In this document: one piece after another, positions 15,348 through 33,200 of the stretch
How the letters are laid out: each line of letters opens with the position of its first letter
Numbering within the stretch: position 1 is the first letter of the stretch
Virus record (IMG/VR): IMGVR_UViG_3300023278_003531
Location: 62,001 to 126,000 of that record
Strand: one strand, 5' to 3'
Length of the DNA stretch: 64,000 nt
From: a virus
Notes under the pieces: generated by a model
Told to the model about the DNA's origin: nothing
What the model saw: only the letters and a program-made list of their open reading frames with translations
Database searches by the model: none
Program-made: the position numbers and the translations under genes

Positions 15348-16187
15348 CTACAGAGAGTTGAAATCCAAACCCATTCTGTAAGATTCTGCCATGAAAGTTA
15401 CCTTAGAACGCCATTGATTAAGATCACTCCATTCCTGCCTAAAACTAATAGGCTCCGCTCTTACATTTCTGAAATGAAAAAGAGCATCATCGTTTCCATT
15501 GACCTGGAGAACATCTCCGGCCCAACCAGTATTATAAGTACCATCATAGTTGAGAGGCTCACCCTCTCTAAAGTCCATAACGGTTAAGTGTCTATTATAC
15601 AAAGCATCATAAATAAACTCAGTAAGATCATCCCGTTCAGAGCTGGAGGTAGCAAAGACATGGATGATCATGTTTCTGCGCGAGATTCTACCAGGCCCGA
15701 TCTGATAAGGATCTTTCTGGTATGCACCCATCTCCACCGCCACAATTGGACCATCTGGAGGATTAGTGCCAGGCCATCCATCAATTACAGATACGTAGTT
15801 TTGACTAAAATCAACCAGGGTAGGAACTCCGTCCGGAGTAGTAGTACCCCCACTGGCGACGAGTGCACCGTCAAGATAATTTATTGTGTAGTAGGAGCTG
15901 TCTATCACCCCTCCCACTTCGTTATATACAGTTACTCTGGTGGTTTGTTCGGTATTGGGAATCCCTGTCGTACAGAGAGAGTCCTGACCGTAAGCGTCAA
16001 AATAAACCCAACCCCGACCCTCGTCTAGAAAATTAGGGAGCCAGGTTATTGCTGCTTCAAACCGTGTCTTATCTGCGTTGTAGCTGAGGGGCGCATTAAC
16101 AATGTTCTCTACCCACTTCATGGGGAGAAGAACACCCTTCAACCAGTGCTGCAACGACTGGTCTTCCATGCGGGCTAGAGTTACCAT
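15348..16187 (-). CDS. Putative tail terminator / tail completion protein
   Basis: The 279-residue protein lies just before the major tail gene, where tail terminator or completion proteins are encoded. The sequence alternates short hydrophobic strands with Gly/Asp turns, and SERDDLTEFIYDALYNRHLT near residue 180 resembles the helix that packs in gpU-like terminators. Its ATG overlaps the upstream TAA by one base (TAATG), indicating translational coupling. No enzymatic motif is present. Function is inferred mainly from gene order. Confidence 0.55.
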   Translation of the reverse strand: MVTLARMEDQSLQHWLKGVLLPMKWVENIVNAPLSYNADKTRFEAAITWLPNFLDEGRGWVYFDAYGQDSLCTTGIPNTEQTTRVTVYNEVGGVIDSSYYTINYLDGALVASGGTTTPDGVPTLVDFSQNYVSVIDGWPGTNPPDGPIVAVEMGAYQKDPYQIGPGRISRRNMIIHVFATSSSERDDLTEFIYDALYNRHLTVMDFREGEPLNYDGTYNTGWAGDVLQVNGNDDALFHFRNVRAEPISFRQEWSDLNQWRSKVTFMAESYRMGLDFNSL

Positions 16188-16840
16188 TATAAACGCTTTC
16201 CCTCCCTTGCGGATTTGATTGCTTTAGTAATGAATGGTTTTAATTTAAATTCATTAATCGCCTCGGTAAAAATATCCAAAGGAGAAAGTCCAGAAAAGGG
16301 ATGCCTGACGGAAGCAAATGAGGTGAATTTACTCCACCCCTCCCTATCGAACTCATCACGGCTAATCATAAACCCTTCCTGGAATCTACCAGGAGTAGGA
16401 GGGGAACCTCCCTTCTGGGCGTAAAGTTCAGGAGTAATAAAAGCCCACTCTCCCAACAATCCCTCTATATAGAACACCACCCAGTCGAGCGGATTAAAAC
16501 TTTTAGGATCCCAATTACCATCCTCCGAATAACCTAAAAACTCCTTTTCTCCTAAACGAACTATAAGTCCTCGATCAGTAACCAGCAAGTTGTGTTCCAG
16601 GTCTTGCTCAAGTTTTGTCTTAAATTCTGTTCTCCAATAAGCGGGGTTAGTAGGATCTTCAGGCATACCCGACATTCTAGAAGAAAGATCATCATACCCA
16701 TCCATAATCATGTCAATTAGATGAGGCATAGCCTCCGTTCTAATAACCGTGACTACATTATGGTGGATGAGCTCCTGCCTCTTCTTGAGGATTCTACTTA
16801 ATCCAGACGTATCTATATTTAGATTTGCCTTAAACCCCAC
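16187..16840 (-). CDS. Putative head-tail joining / tail completion protein
   Basis: This 217-residue protein begins with a helical segment (LSRILKKRQELIHHNVV) and contains WDPKSFNPLDWVVFYIEGLL and PPTPGRFQEGFM, reminiscent of HK97 gp10-type proteins that sit between connector and tail. It ends in a basic tail (KAIKSAREGKRL). The start overlaps the previous stop, as in the rest of the joining cluster. The family call is tentative; membership of the neck module is well supported by order. Confidence 0.55.
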   Translation of the reverse strand: MGFKANLNIDTSGLSRILKKRQELIHHNVVTVIRTEAMPHLIDMIMDGYDDLSSRMSGMPEDPTNPAYWRTEFKTKLEQDLEHNLLVTDRGLIVRLGEKEFLGYSEDGNWDPKSFNPLDWVVFYIEGLLGEWAFITPELYAQKGGSPPTPGRFQEGFMISRDEFDREGWSKFTSFASVRHPFSGLSPLDIFTEAINEFKLKPFITKAIKSAREGKRL

Positions 16841-20342: not shown

Positions 20343-20855
20343 TTAAATTTCAGACATAAATTCTTCTGCGGTCTTAGTGTGTTTCCTAAGATTACAACTA
20401 GGACACGCAAGGCATAAATTAGACCAAGTGTGCTTACCTCCCCTAGAAAGGGGCAGTTTGTGATCTAAATGAGAATTTTCTTCAATAGAAACACTGCAAT
20501 AAAAACACATCTTATCTTGTACACACGAGAGTAGTTCTATCATGCCACTAAAAATAAATCCTAAATTATTATCCTTAAGTGCTCGTCTTTTTTGGGCATA
20601 TTCTCTAAATTTAAGTTTATTAGATTTCTGATATTCAGATTGTTTTGATGGATATTTATCCCTATAAGATTCACTATATTCTCTGTGCATTATTTTCTTT
20701 CTCTCTATGTTGCACTTATAATACTTATTATTTCTAAGTTTATCTATCTCCGATACACACTCTTTACACTGAGATTTAAATCCATTTTTAGAAGAACTAT
20801 TTTTATAGAATTCATTCTTTCTCTTTAGCACCTTGCATGTACTACATATTTTCAT
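20343..20855 (-). CDS. HNH homing-type endonuclease
   Basis: The 170-residue protein begins with a zinc knuckle (CSTCKVLKRKNEF...CKEC) and has a Lys/Tyr-rich helical linker. The C-terminal HNH module follows, with CFYC, LDHKLPLSRGGKH, CLACPSCNLRKHTKT (residues about 115-165). All HNH residues appear intact. It sits alone between the major capsid gene and the tandem paralogues, is AT-rich compared with its neighbours, and has a strongly folded 5' leader. This is typical of a free-standing homing endonuclease that invaded an intergenic site. Confidence 0.88.
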   Translation of the reverse strand: MKICSTCKVLKRKNEFYKNSSSKNGFKSQCKECVSEIDKLRNNKYYKCNIERKKIMHREYSESYRDKYPSKQSEYQKSNKLKFREYAQKRRALKDNNLGFIFSGMIELLSCVQDKMCFYCSVSIEENSHLDHKLPLSRGGKHTWSNLCLACPSCNLRKHTKTAEEFMSEI

Positions 20856-21081: not shown

Positions 21082-22149
21082 TTAACTTCGGTCAATAACA
21101 CCAAGCTGGGTCATTCGAGAGTCGAGAAGGGCGAACCCTACCTCTTCCCATCCGAAGAATCCCTGCTTCTGCTGTCGAAGCAAGCTCGGGTCATCGTGCG
21201 CCTCGAACTCCTTTCGTACAGGCATAACAAGCGAATCATTAACGGAGAGATCAAATCCATAGACCTGGGTCTCACCTGCAGTGGTAACGTTTCCGTTAGC
21301 ATCCACGGTGTTAATGTTCGTTGGGGTGTAATCATTGAAGTCGCCGGAACCATCTACCTGGAAGATACCATAAGAAGCGCCGTTCTGGTTGATGTTGAAT
21401 CGACCAGTAGCACCAAGCTGGAATACCTCATGTAGATTTACGTTCCAGATTCGACCCATACCAGCAGCCGTGAAAATCTCTCGGCGGGTGATCGGATCAA
21501 CCTGAGTATCGGTCCACTCACGAATGTCAGCGGCGTCCTCAGGGGAAATGTATAGGTCAGTAAGGGAGCGTCGAACTCTCTTCATTCCTACCATCATCAG
21601 GTTCAGGAGCTCCTTCGAGAGGAACTTCTCACCGGTAGATCCGGAGGGAACCTGGAAAACAGGAGCATTGCGAGCGCCAAGGAGACCCTGGCCTGCGAAG
21701 TCAGTAGTAGCACCGGGGACAATTACTCGCCATCCGGACTCCTCTTCGTAGTCTGCAATAGATCGTGCTGCGTTTCGAGCTGCTCGCTCGGGGATATCAA
21801 TGCGTGAGTCGCGTGCGTAGGTTACCTTCCAATCCGCAGATACTGCGATGGAGAAAGTAGGTACGTACACTTCCTCACCAACACCCTCAACGAAGTTCTG
21901 TGCGATATATCCGAGTCCCGGAAGTACGAATACCGGAACGTCGAAGTCGTCAGCAACTGGATATACAGCCTGTGCGCCTGGCGCCAATCGCTCAACAGCA
22001 AAGAGCTGTCGCATGATGGACGCGTCTCGAATCTCCTGGAGAATCGGGACAGTAAGAGCCTGCGCAAAGGCTTTGTATGCTTCAACACCCTCGGGAGTGT
22101 CGATAGCTGCAGTTGCTTGGAACATTTCCTGTAGCTTTGTTCTATCCAT
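21082..22149 (-). CDS. Major capsid protein, HK97-fold type
   Basis: The 355-residue protein lies between decoration/scaffold genes and the neck genes. It has a helical N-terminal arm, DVPVFVLPGLGYIAQNFVEG and VGEEVYVPTFSIAVSADWKV typical of the E-loop/P-domain region of capsid proteins, a long spine helix (DIPERAARNAARSIADYEEE), and a C-terminal QGFFGWEEVGFALLDSRMTQ ending of the kind found in large-phage capsid proteins. The start has AAAGGAGG eight bases before ATG, the strongest ribosome binding site seen here. The frame is intact, so the adjacent HNH is not intron-borne within it. Confidence 0.85.
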   Translation of the reverse strand: MDRTKLQEMFQATAAIDTPEGVEAYKAFAQALTVPILQEIRDASIMRQLFAVERLAPGAQAVYPVADDFDVPVFVLPGLGYIAQNFVEGVGEEVYVPTFSIAVSADWKVTYARDSRIDIPERAARNAARSIADYEEESGWRVIVPGATTDFAGQGLLGARNAPVFQVPSGSTGEKFLSKELLNLMMVGMKRVRRSLTDLYISPEDAADIREWTDTQVDPITRREIFTAAGMGRIWNVNLHEVFQLGATGRFNINQNGASYGIFQVDGSGDFNDYTPTNINTVDANGNVTTAGETQVYGFDLSVNDSLVMPVRKEFEAHDDPSLLRQQKQGFFGWEEVGFALLDSRMTQLGVIDRS

Positions 22150-24497: not shown

Positions 24498-24698
24498 TTA
24501 AGGTAACAGAACCGCTATACCACTAGTAACCACATCTACATACACACCACCAACAGGTACACCACTCGCAGTAGCATCGAGAGGACCATTAGCAGTTAAA
24601 AGACCGTTAAATGCAAGTGCTAATCCAAGTTTACCATCATCTCGGTACAGCTGTCCCACAGGGGTTACTGTAACGTTCTGCTGATCTGGCTTTGCCAT
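24498..24698 (-). CDS. Small hydrophobic beta protein
   Basis: The 66-residue protein is rich in Gly, Val, Ala and Leu (LGLALAFNGLLTANGPLD, GGVYVDVVTSGIAVLLP) without a clear membrane helix or signal sequence. The composition resembles small decoration proteins of the head module. It has AGGAGG before its ATG and is followed by a terminator. No family recognised. Confidence 0.65.
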   Translation of the reverse strand: MAKPDQQNVTVTPVGQLYRDDGKLGLALAFNGLLTANGPLDATASGVPVGGVYVDVVTSGIAVLLP

Positions 24699-24710
24699 AA
24701 CCTTCCTCCT

Positions 24711-25037
24711 TTATTCAGACTTTCTTGTAAAAATCAGCTGATCTTTTGTTATTTTAAATTCACCAATACTCGCTACAGCCTTCGATAAGAAGACAATAGT
24801 ATCTTGCCTATTAAGAAGCTCAACGGCTTGCTCAACGGCACGTTCCCGATCATCGCCGGCATCCACTATAGTAGGGCCAGATCCGACGAGTAAAAGAAAA
24901 CCAGAAGCTTTCTTGCGGTCAGCCATAGGATTTAACTCGTGAGCTTTCCTAAATGCGTCTATTTTGTGTCTGAATCTTTCGACAGAGTTGTCGGAAATTA
25001 CGGAAGAAGCGTCAATTGACTGGCTGCTAATTACGAA
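24711..25037 (-). CDS. -1 frame extension of the prohead protease candidate (71-residue ORF plus upstream open frame)
   Basis: An ATG-started 71-residue ORF occupies 24711-24926, but the same frame is open without a stop back to 25037, exactly where the A10 run at the end of the preceding gene lies. A -1 shift there joins 37 more residues (FVISSQSIDASSVISDNSVE and on) to MADRKKASGFLLLVGSG. The local ATG has no convincing ribosome binding site, unlike nearly every other gene here. I therefore read this as the C-terminal extension of a fusion of about 578 residues; separate initiation at 24926 remains possible. Confidence 0.65.
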   Translation of the reverse strand, partial: FVISSQSIDASSVISDNSVERFRHKIDAFRKAHELNPMADRKKASGFLLLVGSGPTIVDAGDDRERAVEQAVELLNRQDTIVFLSKAVASIGEFKITKDQLIFTRKSE

Positions 25038-26446
25038 TTTTTTTTTTCAGTCTCAATCACAAAATCCCTAAGAGAGTTTCGGAGAGACTGCGCCTCGTCA
25101 TGAAGTCGAACAATTTGATCTTGTCGTTCCGTTAGGGGCTCTACCGATGCGTCTACTTTATTAGTAACTGCGGGCAGAACAAGATCAGTGGTAAAACTAT
25201 TACCCGGTGTATTAGACAAGAATTCACGTACGGTCTTAGTAAATGCACCAGTGTCATCGGGGTTATTGGTCATAGAGTTTTTCTGATTTCGAAGACACTC
25301 GGGAGCTTTGGCGGTAGCACCAATAACAGGGCAGTGCTCCTCGAACAGAGCACAATAATGCTCCTGAATGACAGCACCTTCGGATTGATCTAGTGCGTTG
25401 TACTTGGTCAGTCTCTTCTTGAAACTTACACAGGTACCGTCAATATTGCTCCCCACATAACCTGGACCAGGAAGACCACCCCCACTCCAACGAGCGGCTA
25501 CTTCCTTATTAGGGCTAACCGTAAGTACTCTGCTGATTCCTCCGGTCTCCTCATCAAGCTCGAGATAAAGTTTAGGGGCATCTTCGTCCGTCTGAACTGT
25601 AGAAACCTCTACTAAATTATCTGCCATTTCGACCTCCTTGTCAACCTGGGTTTCCCCTGCGGTTTCAGAAAGTACTACTTTGTGTCCTCGGAGATTATCA
25701 ATCATTTCTAGATCCACAACCTGCTCTCCCTTCTCCATCTGCTCACGTCGAGCTGCTGTCTCCATGATGATAGAGTGGGGGTTTGCAGGATTCTTAACAA
25801 TACCCATCCCACTAAAGGTAATATGTCGAAGAACCCGCGCGACCTGTCGGACACCCATCTCCCTATGACCCGCCATTACCTTTACAAAACCACCTACCAG
25901 CTCATCAGGATCATACCCCAACGCCTGGGCCTCGTCACGTGTGATGATAGTATTGCCGATCTTAATGTCGAAGTCTTTAAAGAAACACTCCATGCTAACC
26001 TTCCACGCGCCTGCAGAAATTTCCTCTGCATACTCGGGGAAGCGCATCTTGTGGATAACACCTGCTACTGCAATGTCCATATCCACACCATCCAGATCCT
26101 GGGAAGCTTTTTCATAATCTGCCATAACTACCAGAGGATCAAACTGGCTACCATCCTTATACATATAAGCACATTCATAGATATGGCCGATGACCTTATC
26201 TTCCTCATGCTCGATATCAATGGCTTTATGCACTACAGTGTTGTGTGCCTTCATCATCTCTGATGGCAAGAAATGTGCACCATTCTTGTTAGTCCCTGCC
26301 GAGACCAGACAAGAGCGCATATATTGAAGATCCTGCTGCTTTTCATCAGGAAAAGCGAGCACGGCAGCTTTCTCCATCGCAGCCTTCTCTACCTCCTGCT
26401 CCACCTCAATGGGTGCATATACTCTAATCTTATTCTCTTCGACCAT
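25031..26446 (-). CDS. Putative prohead (capsid maturation) protease
   Basis: The 471-residue zero-frame product has an N-terminal domain (residues 35-240) with NKNGAHFLPSEMMKAHNTVV, a conserved His in AIDIEHEEDKVIGHI, and AGAWKVSMECFFKDFDI. The His and the Ser in VSMEC are plausible catalytic residues of the gp21/U9-like prohead proteases that release scaffold during head maturation. The C-terminal half holds four Cys (CVSFKK, YCALFEEHC, ECLRNQK) and an end helix. It sits between portal and capsid genes as expected. It ends KKNS right after an A10 run, where a shift to -1 would lengthen it by about 108 residues. Confidence 0.6.
   Translation of the reverse strand: MVEENKIRVYAPIEVEQEVEKAAMEKAAVLAFPDEKQQDLQYMRSCLVSAGTNKNGAHFLPSEMMKAHNTVVHKAIDIEHEEDKVIGHIYECAYMYKDGSQFDPLVVMADYEKASQDLDGVDMDIAVAGVIHKMRFPEYAEEISAGAWKVSMECFFKDFDIKIGNTIITRDEAQALGYDPDELVGGFVKVMAGHREMGVRQVARVLRHITFSGMGIVKNPANPHSIIMETAARREQMEKGEQVVDLEMIDNLRGHKVVLSETAGETQVDKEVEMADNLVEVSTVQTDEDAPKLYLELDEETGGISRVLTVSPNKEVAARWSGGGLPGPGYVGSNIDGTCVSFKKRLTKYNALDQSEGAVIQEHYCALFEEHCPVIGATAKAPECLRNQKNSMTNNPDDTGAFTKTVREFLSNTPGNSFTTDLVLPAVTNKVDASVEPLTERQDQIVRLHDEAQSLRNSLRDFVIETEKKNS
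25038..25047 (-). promoter_or_regulatory. A10 slippery run, probable -1 frameshift or slippage site
   Basis: On the minus strand the codons GAA AAA AAA AAT TCG TAA contain ten consecutive A. This offers an in-frame A-AAA-AAA heptamer for -1 ribosomal slippage, or polymerase slippage adding one A. Either event bypasses the TAA and enters the open frame that continues to 24711. I did not find an obvious stem-loop directly after it. Confidence 0.6.
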
Positions 26447-26626
26447 TTATTGTCCTCCCAACTCGGCTTCAGCTATTGCCGTGGCGGTATTCTCTTCTGA
26501 GTTTTCTTCGTCCTCTTTGAGAACCTTGTAAAGCTCATCTAACTTTTCTAAAGTCTGCTCACTTCTACGCTTAGTCTTTTGCTTAATCTCTGCTACTGTG
26601 GCTTCCATTGATTCTAGGTTTTGCAT
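26447..26626 (-). CDS. Small helical protein
   Basis: This is a 59-residue, Glu/Lys-rich coiled coil (EIKQKTKRRSEQTLEKLDEL) with an acidic C terminus. I chose the ATG at 26626 over the GTG at 26644 because the GTG overlaps the GGAGG that serves as ribosome binding site. Its position before the protease gene suggests a minor head or scaffold-like component. No family recognised. Confidence 0.65.
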   Translation of the reverse strand: MQNLESMEATVAEIKQKTKRRSEQTLEKLDELYKVLKEDEENSEENTATAIAEAELGGQ

Positions 26627-26644
26627 CGGATTTCTATCCTCCAC

Positions 26645-26887
26645 TTAGTCTGAATTCCGTTTAAAGACCTTTATCAAAAGATCTATTGAATCGTCCAGTT
26701 TGTGAGCGAGCTCTTCATAGCGTTCTTTGCTCTCGGTCACATCACTGATTCTCTCACGGTAGAGAGTTAGCAACTGATCTTGTAACTTATTTTTTTCTTG
26801 ATAAAGATAATAAATAACACTACATAGTCCGACTCCTATTAGAGCAAAAAGACCATGCGCCTTAAATATTTCATTTAAGAGATCCAT
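26645..26887 (-). CDS. Membrane-anchored coiled-coil protein
   Basis: The 80-residue protein has one N-terminal transmembrane segment (residues 12-30, LFALIGVGLCSVIYYLY) followed by a charged coiled coil (KNKLQDQLLTLYRERISDVT). This shape resembles hemolysin XhlA-type or Rz-like accessory lysis proteins and small phage membrane scaffolds. The location inside the head module argues against a canonical holin. GGAGGG precedes the ATG. Confidence 0.6.
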   Translation of the reverse strand: MDLLNEIFKAHGLFALIGVGLCSVIYYLYQEKNKLQDQLLTLYRERISDVTESKERYEELAHKLDDSIDLLIKVFKRNSD

Positions 26888-26905
26888 AAGACTTCTGCCC
26901 TCCTA

Positions 26906-27163
26906 TTATGCTTGTGATATTGGGGATTCCGGCGCGCAAAGGCCTAAGTTATTTAAAATAAATCCCTCAGGGCACTCAAGAGTGCCTACCGGTTCAGCCC
27001 CCTCCACATTAGTAATAGGGATACAAGAACCCGATTTCGGATCAAAGACTTCCTCAGGTCTACACTGCGGATGGAACTCCTGAGGATCAGTTATCTGACT
27101 TTTGTCAGACCATCCTCTTAGGATTTTCCCAAGTTGGCCGCGATGATCTGGCGAGCATGCCAC
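26906..27163 (-). CDS. Overlapping ORF carrying two cysteine modules (frameshift extension)
   Basis: The ORF is 85 residues from a GTG at 27163. Its first 46 bases overlap the end of the 780-residue gene in the -1 frame. It contains CRPEEVFDPKSGSC (C-x12-C) and CPEGFILNNLGLC, the same module as in the upstream protein. The GGGAAAA heptamer in the overlap would fuse residues 14-85 onto the upstream product, giving about 851 residues. An independent GTG start behind AGGAACATCTTTT is possible but weaker. Confidence 0.6.
   Translation of the reverse strand: MACSPDHRGQLGKILRGWSDKSQITDPQEFHPQCRPEEVFDPKSGSCIPITNVEGAEPVGTLECPEGFILNNLGLCAPESPISQA
27094..27130 (-). promoter_or_regulatory. Programmed -1 frameshift signal GGGAAAA with stem-loop
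   Basis: On the minus strand the zero frame reads TTG GGA AAA TCC TAA, so G-GGA-AAA is a canonical X-XXY-YYZ heptamer (27124-27130) two codons before the stop. Downstream is a perfect TCTGAC-AAAA-GTCAGA hairpin (27094-27109), optionally closed by GGAT/ATCC so that the spacer shrinks to about 8 bases. The -1 frame is exactly that of the overlapping cysteine-module ORF. Confidence 0.75.
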
Positions 27164-29460
27164 AAAAGATGTTCCTGAGCATCAGCGACTGCCTGGTCTG
27201 CATACCCATCTATCTTAGACGACCTGGCCAATGCATTTCGCAATCTTGCAACATCCACAGATGCGGTATCGTAAGAATCCTCTACATCTGGGGTATGGTG
27301 CATTAGATTACGTCGAGTATGTCCGACTAGGGAAGGAGGAAAAGCCTCGTTGGGTAGGTCCTTAGCGGCTACCTTGGACTTCTCCTTGTTTCCTTCCTCT
27401 GTCTCGTTTAGAATAACATCAAGAGCAGAGATTATCTTAGCAAGAGACATGTTACCCACAGTGTCTCCTACCGAGGCAGTGTTTCCTGGATTTTGAGGGC
27501 TGGAACCAGCAGGGCGACTTTTGTCCATGCTGTCCAGTGGGCGACAAATTTTATTCTTAGCATCCCAAATAGTGTCCTTAGGACAATCACTGGGGAGATT
27601 AAGTTTGCCAGCTGGAGCATCAACCAGTCCTTCTCTGTTTCCTGGGTTGGCATCAGCACTCTCATCTTCCGACTTACCCTTAAACGCACCCTTACGAGGC
27701 ATGCACTTTTTGGTAACAGGGTTCACGAACTGTCCCTCAGGACAACCAGGACCTCCCTTGTTACCCGGACCAGACGTGGTAGTCTGAGCCTCGTCCTCGG
27801 CGGACTTGGCTTTCTTCTTTTTCTTATTGTCTTTCTTGTCGTCTTTCTTATCTCCGTCTTTGCCCTTTTTCTTATCCAACATCTTCTGGATGAAGGGAGG
27901 TATGAATGCATCTTCCTCACTGGACTTCGTATTCTTACTGGAGTCTAGAGGATCACAATCTTGCTTATCCGCATTCCAGATAGTACCCTTAGGGCAATCC
28001 TGAGGCAGTCTAGCAGGTCTTCCCTCAGGCAAGGGAGTGATGTCTCTCTTAGCTGCTTTGCTAGTATCCATTTCGATGCACTTACGTGCACCGAAGTTGT
28101 ACATCTGGCCGGGAGGACACTGGAAATTAACAGGGTCTCTTCGACCCTCAGGCTGAACAGCCTGCTCTGTCTTGACAGCATCGTAAAATCCCTGCACCTT
28201 AGAGCAATTCTTAGACTCGGAACTCCATTCCATTCCAGGAGGGCAGGGTCCTTGATTTACCTCAGAAGACTGCTCCTTCTCATAGGAAGACATCCTCGCC
28301 GCAACAATCTCCTCACGAATAGGACGCATTAGGTCATTGATTACTTCAGCAAAATCTAAAGAAGTTTCAGCCTTAGCAAAATTATTGACCTCAATCTCAC
28401 ATGCCTTGGCACGTGCTAGAATCTTTCGTCTAAGTGATGCCTTCTCTGAGGAGGAGAGACCCTTCGCCTGGTTGAATCTGGACATCGCGTTTCTAACACG
28501 AGCGCAGGTGTCTAACGGAAACTTCCTCTTTCCAGGAACACCGAACGCACTGTCAGGCAGAGCATTACGCTGAGCGGATTTAATGGGCGCTGCAGACTCA
28601 TTACCTACCAAACTAGGAGAATCAACTGCGGTCGGGTCGTCGCCATACTCATAAACTTCCTGAGGAAGTGCGTGTCCAAAGTGCTGGGACTTATATCCCT
28701 TACCAGAAAACTCCTCAACTATATAACCAGCTACATCGTGAGAATGTACCTCGTCCCCATAACCCTCGACGGAAGTCTTACCATTACCAGACGCATCTAG
28801 TGTTACTAGATGGGTGTGGCCGTGAAGGGGATCGGGGGAAGTCATAGCAACCTTACCACTCAGATAACGTGCCAGCTCCTGCTTCTCATCCTCAGTAAGT
28901 GCTGCGGATGACATCAGGGTGTCCTTGTTTAGAGGGATACACTGCCTAAGCTTAAAATCAAAAAGCTGCTTAGGGGGGCACTGGAAATTAACAGTGTCTC
29001 GGCGGCCCTCAGGATCCATATTAACAATCTCCTGATGTCCCCCAGTTCCTGGAGCAGCTGCTTCTTCTACTACATACTCGTTAGCCTCAGTCATTGCAAA
29101 CTCATCGCTAGTCTCAGACTCTGCTTCTTCCAGAGTAACACATCGTCTCTGGATAAAAGAAAAAGTCGTGCCCGCTGAGCACGACTCCGGTTCATCCATA
29201 TCATCTGCGTCAATTGCGACCTCGGTCTGGGACAGAACCTCCACAGACGCGGTACCTCGCCACTCAGGGCCGTGATCAACATTCACACTTCGGCTCTCCA
29301 ACGTGTGATCAATGCTGCCCATGGGAAGACATCGACCACTTGCAGGATCCTTACGATGTCCTTCGGGACAGTCTTCGTTCAACTCAATAGCGAACTCTCT
29401 CATCTCTGTAAGAAAATCTAAAGGATTATTTCCCTCGTTTGATTTATTATTGTCGGTCAT
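27118..29460 (-). CDS. Head-module protein with repeated C-x12-C modules
   Basis: The 780-residue protein carries eight short modules with cysteines at 31/44, 94/107, 161/174, 406/419, 448/461, 489/502, 573/586 and 626/639, always exactly C-x12-C and mostly beginning CPxG or CPPx with an aromatic or Asn/Asp in the middle. Between them are a GHTHLVTLDASGNGKT...GDEVHSHDV histidine motif (213-243), an LPDSAFGVPGKRKFPLDTC helical domain (301-357) and a related partial copy near the C terminus (702-775), and a Lys-rich linker (529-551). It lies between portal and protease genes, so it is probably a virion or prohead component. I do not recognise the family as a whole. Confidence 0.7.
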   Translation of the reverse strand: MTDNNKSNEGNNPLDFLTEMREFAIELNEDCPEGHRKDPASGRCLPMGSIDHTLESRSVNVDHGPEWRGTASVEVLSQTEVAIDADDMDEPESCSAGTTFSFIQRRCVTLEEAESETSDEFAMTEANEYVVEEAAAPGTGGHQEIVNMDPEGRRDTVNFQCPPKQLFDFKLRQCIPLNKDTLMSSAALTEDEKQELARYLSGKVAMTSPDPLHGHTHLVTLDASGNGKTSVEGYGDEVHSHDVAGYIVEEFSGKGYKSQHFGHALPQEVYEYGDDPTAVDSPSLVGNESAAPIKSAQRNALPDSAFGVPGKRKFPLDTCARVRNAMSRFNQAKGLSSSEKASLRRKILARAKACEIEVNNFAKAETSLDFAEVINDLMRPIREEIVAARMSSYEKEQSSEVNQGPCPPGMEWSSESKNCSKVQGFYDAVKTEQAVQPEGRRDPVNFQCPPGQMYNFGARKCIEMDTSKAAKRDITPLPEGRPARLPQDCPKGTIWNADKQDCDPLDSSKNTKSSEEDAFIPPFIQKMLDKKKGKDGDKKDDKKDNKKKKKAKSAEDEAQTTTSGPGNKGGPGCPEGQFVNPVTKKCMPRKGAFKGKSEDESADANPGNREGLVDAPAGKLNLPSDCPKDTIWDAKNKICRPLDSMDKSRPAGSSPQNPGNTASVGDTVGNMSLAKIISALDVILNETEEGNKEKSKVAAKDLPNEAFPPSLVGHTRRNLMHHTPDVEDSYDTASVDVARLRNALARSSKIDGYADQAVADAQEHLLWHARQIIAANLGKS

Positions 29461-29477
29461 TTTCTAATGTCCTCCGT

Positions 29478-31355
29478 TTAACTAGATTTACTTGGCTTTG
29501 TTGGTTTTGTGTTTGGTTTTGTAGATTTAGCTCGGGGCTTACCCCGTCCCTTTCGAGGCCGACCCTCGCTCGGAGTTCCCGTAGGGGTTCTCTGAATGTT
29601 CTGAATATTCTTCTGCAGGGATTGGATCTGATCTTGCATGTTTTTCTGGAAATCTTTAAGATCATCTTCTGTAACTGTAGTAGGCTTACCCCCCGGAGTA
29701 CCATCGCTCGTAGGTGCAACAGCCCCGGGTGCAACCTTGGGGTTGTACGGAGATCCAATAATGCCCAGAACTCCTGCTTGAACTGCGGGCGACTCCTGGA
29801 GCATGTTAGCATACTCGTTAGAGAAGTCGAAACCAAGCTTCTCAATACCGGTTTCATAAGAAATGATTCTTCGATCAATCATACCCTGGATGACGCTCAT
29901 TAACATAATCTCATCCTTCAGAGTGTTCTCATCGAACCTAACCTTGGGATAACGATCGAAGCCCATTGCAAGTGCAACCTCTTCGTATTCGTGATCTATC
30001 CAACGTGTAACCACACGCCGGGCGTAATTAATCTCCTCAGCAAATGCCTTAGTGGCTGCCTCTATTGCCTTTGCGTTACCTGAAACCTCACCATCAATAA
30101 GGGCCCTAGTGACTCCCATGGACTGGCTTAGATCATCATTGACTTGTTCGAATTTACTCTGTCCTAGAATATTGTCAATCTCGGGAAAGGTGATCTTCTC
30201 TACCTCCAGGGTGTGGTTCCACACGACATCAAAACTCTTACTAGAAGTATCGAACAACTGAGCGATTGCTTCTAACTGGGACTGATCAGTAACCGGATGC
30301 TCATCATTACCAATAGTTATCTTAAGAATATAGTTTGTAATTCCATCCAAGGTGGAGAAATCTGCCTTCTTTAATTCTTCCTTGTAGCGAATATCATCCA
30401 AAGCCCTAGAAAGCTTAGGCTTGGGGTACCGCTCATAATCCTGACGTCGATAATCACACTTTCCTACCAACTCCGGTGGAAGCAGCACAGGTTTGTCCTT
30501 CTTTACCTGATCTTTAAGTTCTTTAGGTAGGCTGTTAAGAAAAGCCTTCTGCTCTTTAGTCAGCTTAGAAGTATTCTTAAGCATTTTTTTCAACTCTTTG
30601 AAAGCTTGAGGCTTAAGTAGAGTTTCTGTCTGGTTAAATAACAAAGGACCTTGGATAACTACTAATCTAGGATCTAGAATTGTGTATTGTAAGGGTATAA
30701 AAGCCTTAGACCATATTTTCTTAGCAGCGCCCCATTCCGTATGTGCTTGTAATTTCTGTAGATCAGAGGTAGTTGAGAACATATTAGCTTTGGCTACGCG
30801 CTTGATCGTCTTATCAAAATCTTCTGGCTTCAACTTAGGCGCAAACTTACCCGCAATCTTGAAGGTCCTTACAAGTCCTACTCTAAAGAAGTCAAAGAAT
30901 ATCTTCTCAACAGTTTCATGGAATCCAATCTCCCTAGTCCATGTATCATAAAAAAGTTTAATGGCGGGATCATCTATATCATTCTTAAAGCCCTTCGCGG
31001 CAAAGTTGGTTAGTGTGTCAATGACGGTGCCGATGTGTCCTTGAGAATGATAGGTATTAATTGCTGTATCGTAAAGCTGCTCGGGTCGTGCCTGTGTTAC
31101 TTGCGGCTTACCAATAAGTAGATCAACATCTACACGTCGAAGCCAATCTCGAGAAATATTACGACCGCCCGTCCAAAACTTCATAGGATGTGGGTCTCCG
31201 TCTTTTCCTGTAAGAAACGCTAACTCCTTAACACCCCTACCCTCGGGACCAACATCAATCTCCATGGAATGAGAACCATCACCATTATCCTCATAGGAGA
31301 GAACTTCAGCATTTTCTAGACCCGCATTAAGCTTCTCTTTAACATCGTCGGACAT
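29478..31355 (-). CDS. Portal protein
   Basis: The 625-residue protein directly follows the large terminase. It has the portal-like stretch DTAINTYHSQGHIGTVIDTL, a wing/stem region with PLQYTILDPRLVVIQGPLLF, and IPEIDN-type helices followed by YARRVVTRWIDHEYEEVALA near residues 450-480, as in many dodecameric portals. The C terminus is Pro/Gly/Lys-rich and disordered (RKGRGKPRAKSTKPNTKPTK). The ring forms the DNA entry vertex and binds the terminase. TerL stop and portal ATG adjoin. Confidence 0.85.
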   Translation of the reverse strand: MSDDVKEKLNAGLENAEVLSYEDNGDGSHSMEIDVGPEGRGVKELAFLTGKDGDPHPMKFWTGGRNISRDWLRRVDVDLLIGKPQVTQARPEQLYDTAINTYHSQGHIGTVIDTLTNFAAKGFKNDIDDPAIKLFYDTWTREIGFHETVEKIFFDFFRVGLVRTFKIAGKFAPKLKPEDFDKTIKRVAKANMFSTTSDLQKLQAHTEWGAAKKIWSKAFIPLQYTILDPRLVVIQGPLLFNQTETLLKPQAFKELKKMLKNTSKLTKEQKAFLNSLPKELKDQVKKDKPVLLPPELVGKCDYRRQDYERYPKPKLSRALDDIRYKEELKKADFSTLDGITNYILKITIGNDEHPVTDQSQLEAIAQLFDTSSKSFDVVWNHTLEVEKITFPEIDNILGQSKFEQVNDDLSQSMGVTRALIDGEVSGNAKAIEAATKAFAEEINYARRVVTRWIDHEYEEVALAMGFDRYPKVRFDENTLKDEIMLMSVIQGMIDRRIISYETGIEKLGFDFSNEYANMLQESPAVQAGVLGIIGSPYNPKVAPGAVAPTSDGTPGGKPTTVTEDDLKDFQKNMQDQIQSLQKNIQNIQRTPTGTPSEGRPRKGRGKPRAKSTKPNTKPTKPSKSS

Positions 31356-33200
31356 TTATCTCCCCTTCTTCTTCTTCGGCTTAGGTTTCAAAACTGCGGC
31401 TCCGCTTAGACGTACCTTCTTATCGTTCCCCGCCTCTGACATAACTCTTCTCTTGAAGGCATCGGGATCACGGGCTATTTCCATCTTATCCATTATAGCC
31501 TGAGGAATAACTCCTCCAAAAGCATCTTCCATCTCTAAGGATTCTTTATCGCGGCTTCGACCACGTACCACCCCTCCGTGGTGCATGATGTCCTCTGGCA
31601 TATCCTCTGTCCAGATCAAATCATAAATACAACGAGCTGCTAGAAAAAAAGCGGTGTAAAGATCCTTCTTCTGCTTCCCGTGACCTCCACCTTTAGGAAC
31701 ATCGAAATGCTGTTTTCCAGTAGGAGTCTCAGTAAGCTCGATAGATTGCATCTGGTTCTTCATATCCCTAATCGTGTGCCAAGAGTCCTCTTCAGGAATG
31801 GTACCGTCCGTTAATGCTTTCAGTTTTTCACTCTGGGGAACCGATGGGAATAGAATGTCTCGATGCTCTAGTAACCGTAAAGCGTCGTAATTAGATTCCG
31901 CAATGAACTCAGCAGAAAAATTGCACATCGTTAGCATATCACGACCTGCTTTTAACTGGTGAACCTCATCCTCGGGATCAAGTATGGGACCTGCTGTATG
32001 GTTGGTGGGATTCTCTGCAAGAATGTCTTTGATGGCGAGGCCGCCACCCTGGGAATCCATATAGATATGGGTAACATTGAATGCTGAGCAAAGGTCTTCG
32101 ATGGTTTGGGCCATCTTGGGAAAGGGTTGATTATGAATTTCTAATGCGTGAACGACTTTAGCGGGCTGTCCAATCTCTACAACCGCAATGGCAAAAGAGT
32201 CTTCACTTCTAGCAGGATCTATACCTAAACAATAAGACTTACCGGGAGATCCCGCAACCTGAGTTGAGAAAGATTTACTACTACATGCTTCCAACAGCGA
32301 CGCTCTGTAAAAAGCATCTGTGTCGGGAATAAAAGCAGCCTCGTATTCCATCCGGAACTCAAGGCTAGACATTTCTTTTCTTGCGGACTCAACGTTATCT
32401 TTATCGAGGAATCCGGTCTCTAGTAATTTATACGGAACTCTAAAAGCTGCGTACTTAGGATTACCTGCACGCATCTCATCACGGTAGATCTTGTACAGAT
32501 CATACATGTGATTAAAAGTGAAATAACCAGATGATGTAATTATAATTTGGTTGGCGCTGCTGTCAGCGTCCAGCTCCTCTTGGGTGATCAACCCACGCTT
32601 AAGAAGCTCCTTCTGCCTTTTGATCCTCTCTACATTCTCCATAGGATTGGCTACGGTAGCTGCCATAGGACGAATGACCATGTTAAAAATCTCGGGTGGA
32701 ATGTGGGGAAACTCATCACAAACAATAGTAAAGAAACGTGAACCACGAATCTTAGTACCGTCGCCTAGAGGTATCGCTTGTATTAACGACCCCGGCTTAC
32801 CCGCCACTGACTTAAATCTAATATAACAATTGTCTGATTGCTGGGTAGGTTTCTTCTCACACGCAGCTCGTAGGATCGGAGACCCTTGATACAAGCGCGT
32901 GCACTCATCAAAAATAAACTTAGATTGACGAAAAGTGGGTGCAATTAATCCTATCTTGTGTCCTGGATACAACATCCCTTTCAGTACAGCAAGCACAGCT
33001 TGGAGAAATGTTTTACCTGAACCACGACACATAATGGCGATGACGTTGCTCTTAGACCACATAGAGCGCAAGACTACTTTTTGGATTTTTGAAAGCTTGA
33101 GTCCCAATAGGTCTTCTGCTGCCATCTCGGGATATTCTCTATAGAACTCAATCAGCTCTGCTGCAGCTGATCTTAATTCCGGATCATCTTCGTTTAGCAT
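31356..33200 (-). CDS. terL: Terminase large subunit
   Basis: The 614-residue protein has the ATPase Walker A CRGSGKT at 58-64, an RQSK motif near 91, Walker B FFTIVCDE with D162/E163, a coupling SSGYFTF segment near 215, and a C-terminal RNase H-like nuclease domain starting GIDPARSEDSF near 328 with further acidic residues (YMDSQGGG, MLTMC). The end is a basic tail (KPKPKKKKGR). It packages DNA through the portal. Length and motif order are normal. Its start overlaps the small terminase candidate stop by one base. Confidence 0.95.
   Translation of the reverse strand: MLNEDDPELRSAAAELIEFYREYPEMAAEDLLGLKLSKIQKVVLRSMWSKSNVIAIMCRGSGKTFLQAVLAVLKGMLYPGHKIGLIAPTFRQSKFIFDECTRLYQGSPILRAACEKKPTQQSDNCYIRFKSVAGKPGSLIQAIPLGDGTKIRGSRFFTIVCDEFPHIPPEIFNMVIRPMAATVANPMENVERIKRQKELLKRGLITQEELDADSSANQIIITSSGYFTFNHMYDLYKIYRDEMRAGNPKYAAFRVPYKLLETGFLDKDNVESARKEMSSLEFRMEYEAAFIPDTDAFYRASLLEACSSKSFSTQVAGSPGKSYCLGIDPARSEDSFAIAVVEIGQPAKVVHALEIHNQPFPKMAQTIEDLCSAFNVTHIYMDSQGGGLAIKDILAENPTNHTAGPILDPEDEVHQLKAGRDMLTMCNFSAEFIAESNYDALRLLEHRDILFPSVPQSEKLKALTDGTIPEEDSWHTIRDMKNQMQSIELTETPTGKQHFDVPKGGGHGKQKKDLYTAFFLAARCIYDLIWTEDMPEDIMHHGGVVRGRSRDKESLEMEDAFGGVIPQAIMDKMEIARDPDAFKRRVMSEAGNDKKVRLSGAAVLKPKPKKKKGR

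Follow-up and report, generated by a model that had tools for sequence, protein, structure and literature searches.

A candidate programmed -1 frameshift at the end of a cysteine-module gene lying between the terminase and major head protein genes of uncultured phages

Results

The window (the whole 64-kb stretch of viral DNA analysed here) contains a gene for a modular protein that very probably ends in a programmed -1 ribosomal frameshift. Wherever the gene end was readable, in 20 loci out of 20, exactly one codon separates an X XXY YYZ heptamer from the stop codon, and a homologous extension in the -1 frame follows the heptamer. The comparison shows the predicted slip site, its position and the frame of the extension to be under selection across a diverse group of uncultured phages. 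We infer that it is the ribosome that slips, as well as how efficiently it does so; the long form would presumably be a minor component of the head, and the virion location and function considered for the protein are likewise presumptive.

The gene and its junction

Upstream of this gene (hereafter the zero-frame gene), the gene for the terminase large subunit (31356-33200; phrog_2, 1.7e-28) and a gene for 625 aa that gave no informative match are present, and the major head protein gene (21082-22149; phrog_2522, 1e-12) is located downstream. 'Head module', as the earlier note had called the protein's surroundings, is therefore a statement on position. Directly after the major head protein gene there is an HNH/endonuclease VII-like gene (20343-20855, minus strand; phrog_1035, 7e-30). 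The zero-frame protein matches the Pfam families CBM_14 (1.3e-15) and DUF6582 (1.1e-7) as well as phrog_16160 (6e-12), a family annotated as of unknown function. The features of the junction are as follows.

29460-27118, minus strand: zero-frame gene, 780 codons, with eight C-x(n)-C modules (CBM_14-like), DUF6582 and a His-rich stretch (HGHTH...HSHDV)
27130-27124, minus strand: putative slippery heptamer G GGA AAA, at the same position in 20/20 loci
27120-27118, minus strand: zero-frame stop TAA; the gene end reads TTG GGA AAA TCC TAA
27115-27110, minus strand: 5' strand of predicted stem S1, GGATGG, 8 nt past the heptamer (supported by the family, not significant in the window alone)
27074-27069, minus strand: 3' strand of S1, CCATCC (supported by the family, not significant in the window alone)
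27094-27109, minus strand: inner hairpin, TCTGAC (27109-27104), AAAA, GTCAGA (27099-27094), inside the wider stem S1
27079-27085, minus strand: 5' strand of a possible pseudoknot stem S2, CCTCAGG (window, L002 and L012 only)
27052-27058, minus strand: 3' strand of S2, CCTGAGG (window, L002 and L012 only)
26906-27124, minus strand: -1 extension after the slip, 72 codons with two cysteine modules; stop at 26908-26906

The heptamer, the hairpin and the open -1 frame that the earlier note had pointed out are all found at this junction, on the minus strand. Its reading of 72 open codons, two further modules (ten in all) and a form of about 851 residues was reproduced from the sequence as well; the predicted fusion has 851 residues because 779 zero-frame residues are joined to the 72 of the extension. 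Read by eye, the two modules of the extension (14 and 13 residues) resemble the eight zero-frame modules in style; the match of the extension to CBM_14 (E 0.022) is below the family cut-off. The whole -1 ORF spans 26906-27163 on the minus strand.

ORF ends throughout the 64-kb window were scanned for a heptamer within the last 25 codons combined with at least 40 open -1 codons, and three cases emerged. The third, at 16187-16189, was rejected: its GGGAAAG stands immediately ahead of an ATG and resembles a ribosome binding site. This motif (16187-16220, minus strand) lies near the end of a 217-aa ORF with a -1 opening of 279 codons and probably serves the overlapping ATG gene.

Relatives and conservation of the slip site

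A profile made from the window protein and its close IMG/VR relatives L002, L008 and L012 (76%, 74% and 73% identity, respectively) retrieved 26 loci and one GTDB contig, and a profile of the extensions retrieved 19 loci, six of them new. Among 25 loci inspected, 15 extend to the end of the gene, nine are cut off by the end of their contig and one (L034, a partial contig) stops early with a TAG at the contig edge, without the heptamer; according to their match coordinates, L003 and L039 finish ahead of the junction. The 20 loci counted comprise the window, 18 IMG/VR contigs (L002, L008, L012, L019, L020, L021, L022, L023, L026, L027, L028, L036, L043, L050, L053, L056, L058 and L059) and one GTDB contig (L040, WJJK01000045.1). 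The latter is binned as Candidatus Altiarchaeales, which may be a host link or misbinning. Repeats were counted once (L016 equals the window, L017 equals L002, L018 and L048 equal L012), and so were L020 and L025, which are not identical over 14,301 bases but have the same junction and extension. Nineteen of the 20 junction stretches (63 nt) are distinct; L019 and L021 are close loci. Furthermore, an IMG/VR contig of 297,725 bp is identical to the window over the compared stretches (up to 15,413 bases) and may come from the same sample. Measured from the match start in 14 loci, the zero-frame gene has 705-899 codons.

In tblastn searches of 50,697 phage records, the zero-frame protein of L020 had no match at E 1e-5, and that of the window had one partial match in a Streptomyces phage, which covers residues 270-331 only and overlaps the DUF6582 match (302-359).

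Conservation of the heptamer and the overlap in relatives had been proposed in the earlier note as a check, and the heptamer is kept throughout, as G GGA AAA in nine loci and as A AAA AAA in eleven. When codons were shuffled within each of 14 genes, 27-60 of 5000 shuffles placed an in-frame heptamer (X XXA AAN or X XXT TTN) in the last four codons; its placement at the gene end is not chance. In a tree of homologues of a neighbouring protein, P0003 (19 rows), the two heptamer types are split by one weakly supported branch (49/96). With one change of type on this tree, the types therefore mark clades and not many independent gains. The branch lengths of the tree indicate a long divergence during which the slip site stayed. 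The slip site is a feature of the cysteine-module family rather than of DUF6582 neighbours in general, since it is missing in the distant L005 (4644-5831). This locus, a Lys/Asp-rich ORF of 395 codons, matches residues 297-367 only (the DUF6582 region) and has neither a heptamer in its last 25 codons nor such an extension. The next ORF there begins at an ATG two bases past the stop; by eye, its start resembles P0003 (NIEHQKEKVVGHI).

Frame of selection and start codons

Protein conservation lies in the zero frame up to the slip site and in the -1 frame past it, i.e., coding selection switches frame at the heptamer. Just upstream of the site, the window and L002 agree at 10/14 residues in the zero frame and at 4/11 in the -1 frame. 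Past the site, synonymous identity (identical codons among codons for the same residue) was higher in extension codons 1-24 than in codons 25-72, and higher than in the whole zero-frame gene, in 13/13 pairs, and higher than in the last 60 zero-frame codons in 10/13 pairs but not in the other three; these pairs share sequences and are not independent. For codons 1-24 versus 25-72, the values are, e.g., 0.90 versus 0.44 for the window and L002 and 1.00 versus 0.65 for L019 and L036. The window and L002 differ at few of the 80 bases from the heptamer on, whereas many third positions vary in the flanks.

The -1 ORF could instead be a separate gene, initiated either at the GTG of position 27163 or through re-initiation close to the TAA. 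In the window this GTG (at -33) has an AGGA 9 nt before it, and L002, L008 and L012 have the GTG as well. However, it is missing in 16/20 loci and derives from zero-frame Leu-Trp codons, and it is the stretch between it and the heptamer in which the window and L002 agree at only 4/11 of the -1 residues. Moreover, 12/20 loci have no ATG, GTG or TTG downstream of the last -1 stop and ahead of the first cysteine of the extension. Besides the four loci with the GTG at -33 (the sequence of L008 ends before the first extension cysteine), starts occur in L026 and L027 (ATG at +113 and +110), L056 (GTG at +8) and L059 (GTG at +59). In five loci (L020, L050, L059, L022 and L058), only 0-9 nt of open -1 frame precede the heptamer. 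Among the 20 loci, no family member was found with the extension as a separate, well-initiated ORF, the arrangement that the earlier note had named as evidence against frameshifting. Given the start-codon survey and the 4/11 identity, we rejected an independent start at GTG 27163 as a general mechanism, and we regard a separate gene as very improbable.

Slightly less probable still is slippage of the polymerase on the A-run, by which an inserted base would yield the long protein from an altered mRNA. Eleven loci do have A7-A8 at this site. Runs of 4-6 A, which are too short for polymerase slippage, are all that the other nine loci, including the window, possess. An in-frame X XXY YYZ heptamer with a constrained downstream region also fits tandem tRNA slippage better.

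The least credible explanation is a former single ORF broken by a frame change in the window, through assembly error or decay: the window extension is the shortest of 19 and has no C-terminal domain, but 19 further loci break at the same codon, synonymous conservation past the site is raised rather than relaxed, no close relative with one continuous ORF was seen among the loci examined, and the identical 297,725-bp contig, together with a layout common to diverged relatives, makes an assembly error very unlikely.

Downstream RNA structure

Structures stimulating -1 slippage are expected about 5-9 nt downstream of the slip site. In the family, stem S1 starts 0-2 nt past the stop codon, and its 3' end falls at about +46 to +50. 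It reads GCGGATGG/TCATCCGC in L019, L020, L021 and L036 and GCGGGTGG/CCACCCGC in L040, and L023 has a counterpart of different sequence (GCACTGAGG/CCTCAGTGC). Over eight sequences, 93.8% of the S1 cells are paired; in L040, one pair has changed on both sides, from A-U to G-C. The hairpin on which the earlier note had relied is present, but it is only part of the downstream element: it is shorter in the L019/L020 group and absent in L040, while the wider S1, to which the note did not point, is kept more widely.

When S1, the hairpin and S2 were taken together, the share of paired cells was reached by 2/500 shuffles and the covariation score by 1/500. The doubly changed pairs (two) were reached by 250/500 and the further pair types (five) by 497/500, so that covariation is thin. 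In synonymous shuffles keeping the extension protein, 16/19 loci were more stable than the mean, six of the 19 with P <0.05 (L008 was too short); L026-L028 were less stable than the mean and have no S1. The P values for the stability of their own S1 were 0.22 for the window, 0.22 for L002 and 0.10 for L012. Fisher combination over ten representatives (L012, L020, L022, L023, L026, L040, L053, L056, L058 and L059; hand-picked before the tree was made, misses included) gave P = 7e-6, or 1.2e-5 with the window replacing L012; the method presupposes independent sequences, whereas L012 and L040 sit on a common branch of the P0003 tree. Free folding of eight loci resulted in z values of -6.0 (L040), -3.9 (L059, with another structure), -2.3 (window), -2.3 (L012), -2.0 (L023), -1.6 (L056), -1.3 (L026) and 0.0 (L020). 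The window, if folded freely, preferred other pairings over S1.

Two further pairings were considered for the family. A nested stem, GAGGAT/ATCCTC, was rejected as the family stem: it fits the window and L002, in which it may indeed form, and pairs only 66.7% of cells over the eight sequences, versus 93.8% for S1. S2 was rejected as a family-wide pseudoknot; it is intact in the window, L002 and L012, and at 71.4% of cells (eight sequences) it is therefore kept as a close-clade possibility only. A search of 24600-29600 against Rfam gave three matches at E up to 1, all below the gathering scores and none at the junction. These comparisons suggest that a putative downstream stimulator is likely present in the family; in the window it may take the form of S1 or of another pairing.

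A putative second recoding site

Two small genes beyond the first site, a second site is found at the end of the next large gene.

25031-26446, minus strand: P0003, 471 aa, conserved, the next large gene
25038-25047, minus strand: putative second slip site, ten consecutive A containing A AAA AAA in frame (A9 or A10 in 19/19 loci)
24711-25034, minus strand: P0003 -1 extension, 107 codons plus stop

In the window and 18 relatives, the -1 frame of P0003 continues for 104-116 codons past the stop codon and encodes a conserved protein. No start position is common to all 19 of these extensions, and the ORF called in the window at 24711-24926 begins at an ATG that is absent at this place from the 18 relatives. 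No consistent RNA structure was found at the second site, and the synonymous excess was inconsistent (11 pairs). Given A9-A10 in all 19 loci, polymerase slippage is a serious rival here and would be as likely as ribosomal slippage. The designation of P0003 as a prohead protease was dropped, since the profile search of the PDB gave one match only (E 1.2) and the predicted structure had a pLDDT of 35.

What the extension carries

The first cysteine modules are common to the extensions, which then diverge. Of the 19 seen to their stop codon, 15 end in a helical domain (KMERC...AICRSRL), which has no Pfam family of its own in the six scanned. The predicted structure of the L020 extension has a mean pLDDT of 65 with confident C-terminal helices; nothing in the PDB matched it at an E value of 0.001 or lower. 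In nine of the 20 extensions, including that of the window, Pfam scans detected no Ig family.

At the end of the L012 extension there is a Dps domain (PF00210, the Ferritin family of Pfam, 1e-21; best match to a solved Dps 9.7e-31), in which NFHWNV, LH.MF and IAERIRALGF are kept with the H, H, D and E positions of the H...H...D...E ferroxidase pattern. We take these four residues to be the ferroxidase ligands. The Ferritin family was found in 5/30 IMG/VR records, in all five at the locus of the cysteine-module gene. Three of these loci have Dps-like ORFs beside the extension, starting at -1, +4 and +11 nt relative to the first base of its stop codon, respectively:

L050, 1433-1957: Dps-like ORF
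L056, from 5335: Dps-like ORF
L059, from 5315: Dps-like ORF

In L037 (4196-6109), two tandem Dps domains lie inside the zero-frame protein, between the third cysteine module and DUF6582. Neither the window's record nor the 297,725-bp record has a Ferritin match. Absence of Dps elsewhere is weak evidence, because the 30 records covered, all from IMG/VR, include many short fragments and do not extend to the L040 genome.

The extension of the window is the shortest of the 19 (72 codons, followed by L058 with 82; L008 is cut). It stops before the linker, part of which is retained in L002, whereas L058 ends soon past the second module. As the extensions of relatives go on into a helical domain or, in one case, Dps, that of the window is a shortened form. 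The interpretation of the earlier note is partly supported: strongly for the predicted -1 frameshift, while its hairpin turned out to be less than the whole element, the extension it described is reduced compared with those of the relatives, and the fixed ratio in the prohead or virion that it proposed is conjectural.

Discussion

The junction most probably works as follows. Most ribosomes would stop at the TAA and release the 780-residue protein, while some would slip back one base on G GGA AAA, with help from an RNA structure lying a few bases further on, and produce the 851-residue form with its C-terminal extension. The extension may act as an arm present on a set share of the copies and meant for C-terminal cargo, a helical domain or Dps; the phage of the window would have retained the arm and lost the cargo. 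A more far-reaching scheme, which we consider doubtful, is that the share of long forms is set by two recoding sites that follow each other in the head region, and that the arm, with Dps fused to it or encoded next to it, brings this protein, which stores iron and protects DNA, into the prohead. Ribosomal slippage would then fix the ratio in which Dps is packaged along with the genome, and the phage of the window would retain both sites without the cargo.

Coat genes of several phages (T7/T3 gene 10, Lactobacillus phage A2, Listeria phages A118, A500 and PSA) are described in PMC5009743 as slipping near their end. According to the same account, the shift is -1 (+1 in PSA), and a share of the copies gains a C-terminal extension, some of these being Ig-like. 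The predicted event resembles these cases, as far as they are described there, in that a slip near the gene end would add a C-terminal part to some copies. However, the slipping gene is not that of the major head protein, and the parts added are cysteine modules followed by a helical domain or Dps; the extensions scanned matched no Ig-like family. For the tail assembly chaperones G/GT, PMC3483164 gives a GGGAAA-type or AAAAAA-type heptamer before the stop; tail chaperones are also covered in PMC7230728. The heptamers of the present family are of the types named there and likewise lie ahead of the stop. In contrast to the chaperone genes, which are placed among tail genes beside that of the tape measure protein, the gene lies between the terminase and major head protein genes (the tape measure gene was not located), and its zero-frame protein is long and modular. 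Dps genes in phage genomes are reported in PMC8008677; in the present family, Dps would be attached through the -1 frame (L012), or is present twice in the zero frame (L037) or encoded just past the extension (L050, L056, L059). Among the open-licence papers listed, covered by titles and abstract openings, there was nothing on this gene family or on a frameshift-joined Dps. The family thus appears to represent a known mechanism, the extension of phage structural proteins by frameshifting, with a new kind of cargo.

What distinguishes it from the known cases is another slipping gene, other added domains and a second recoding site. Both extensions escape ordinary ORF calling, the first lacking a start codon ahead of its first cysteine in 12/20 loci and the second lacking a start shared by all 19 of its loci. 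With 20 loci, two heptamer types and two sequence solutions for the stem, the natural alignment makes the putative stimulator testable. If the arm is in the capsid, the placement of Dps at this locus would open the protection of packaged DNA to direct experiment.
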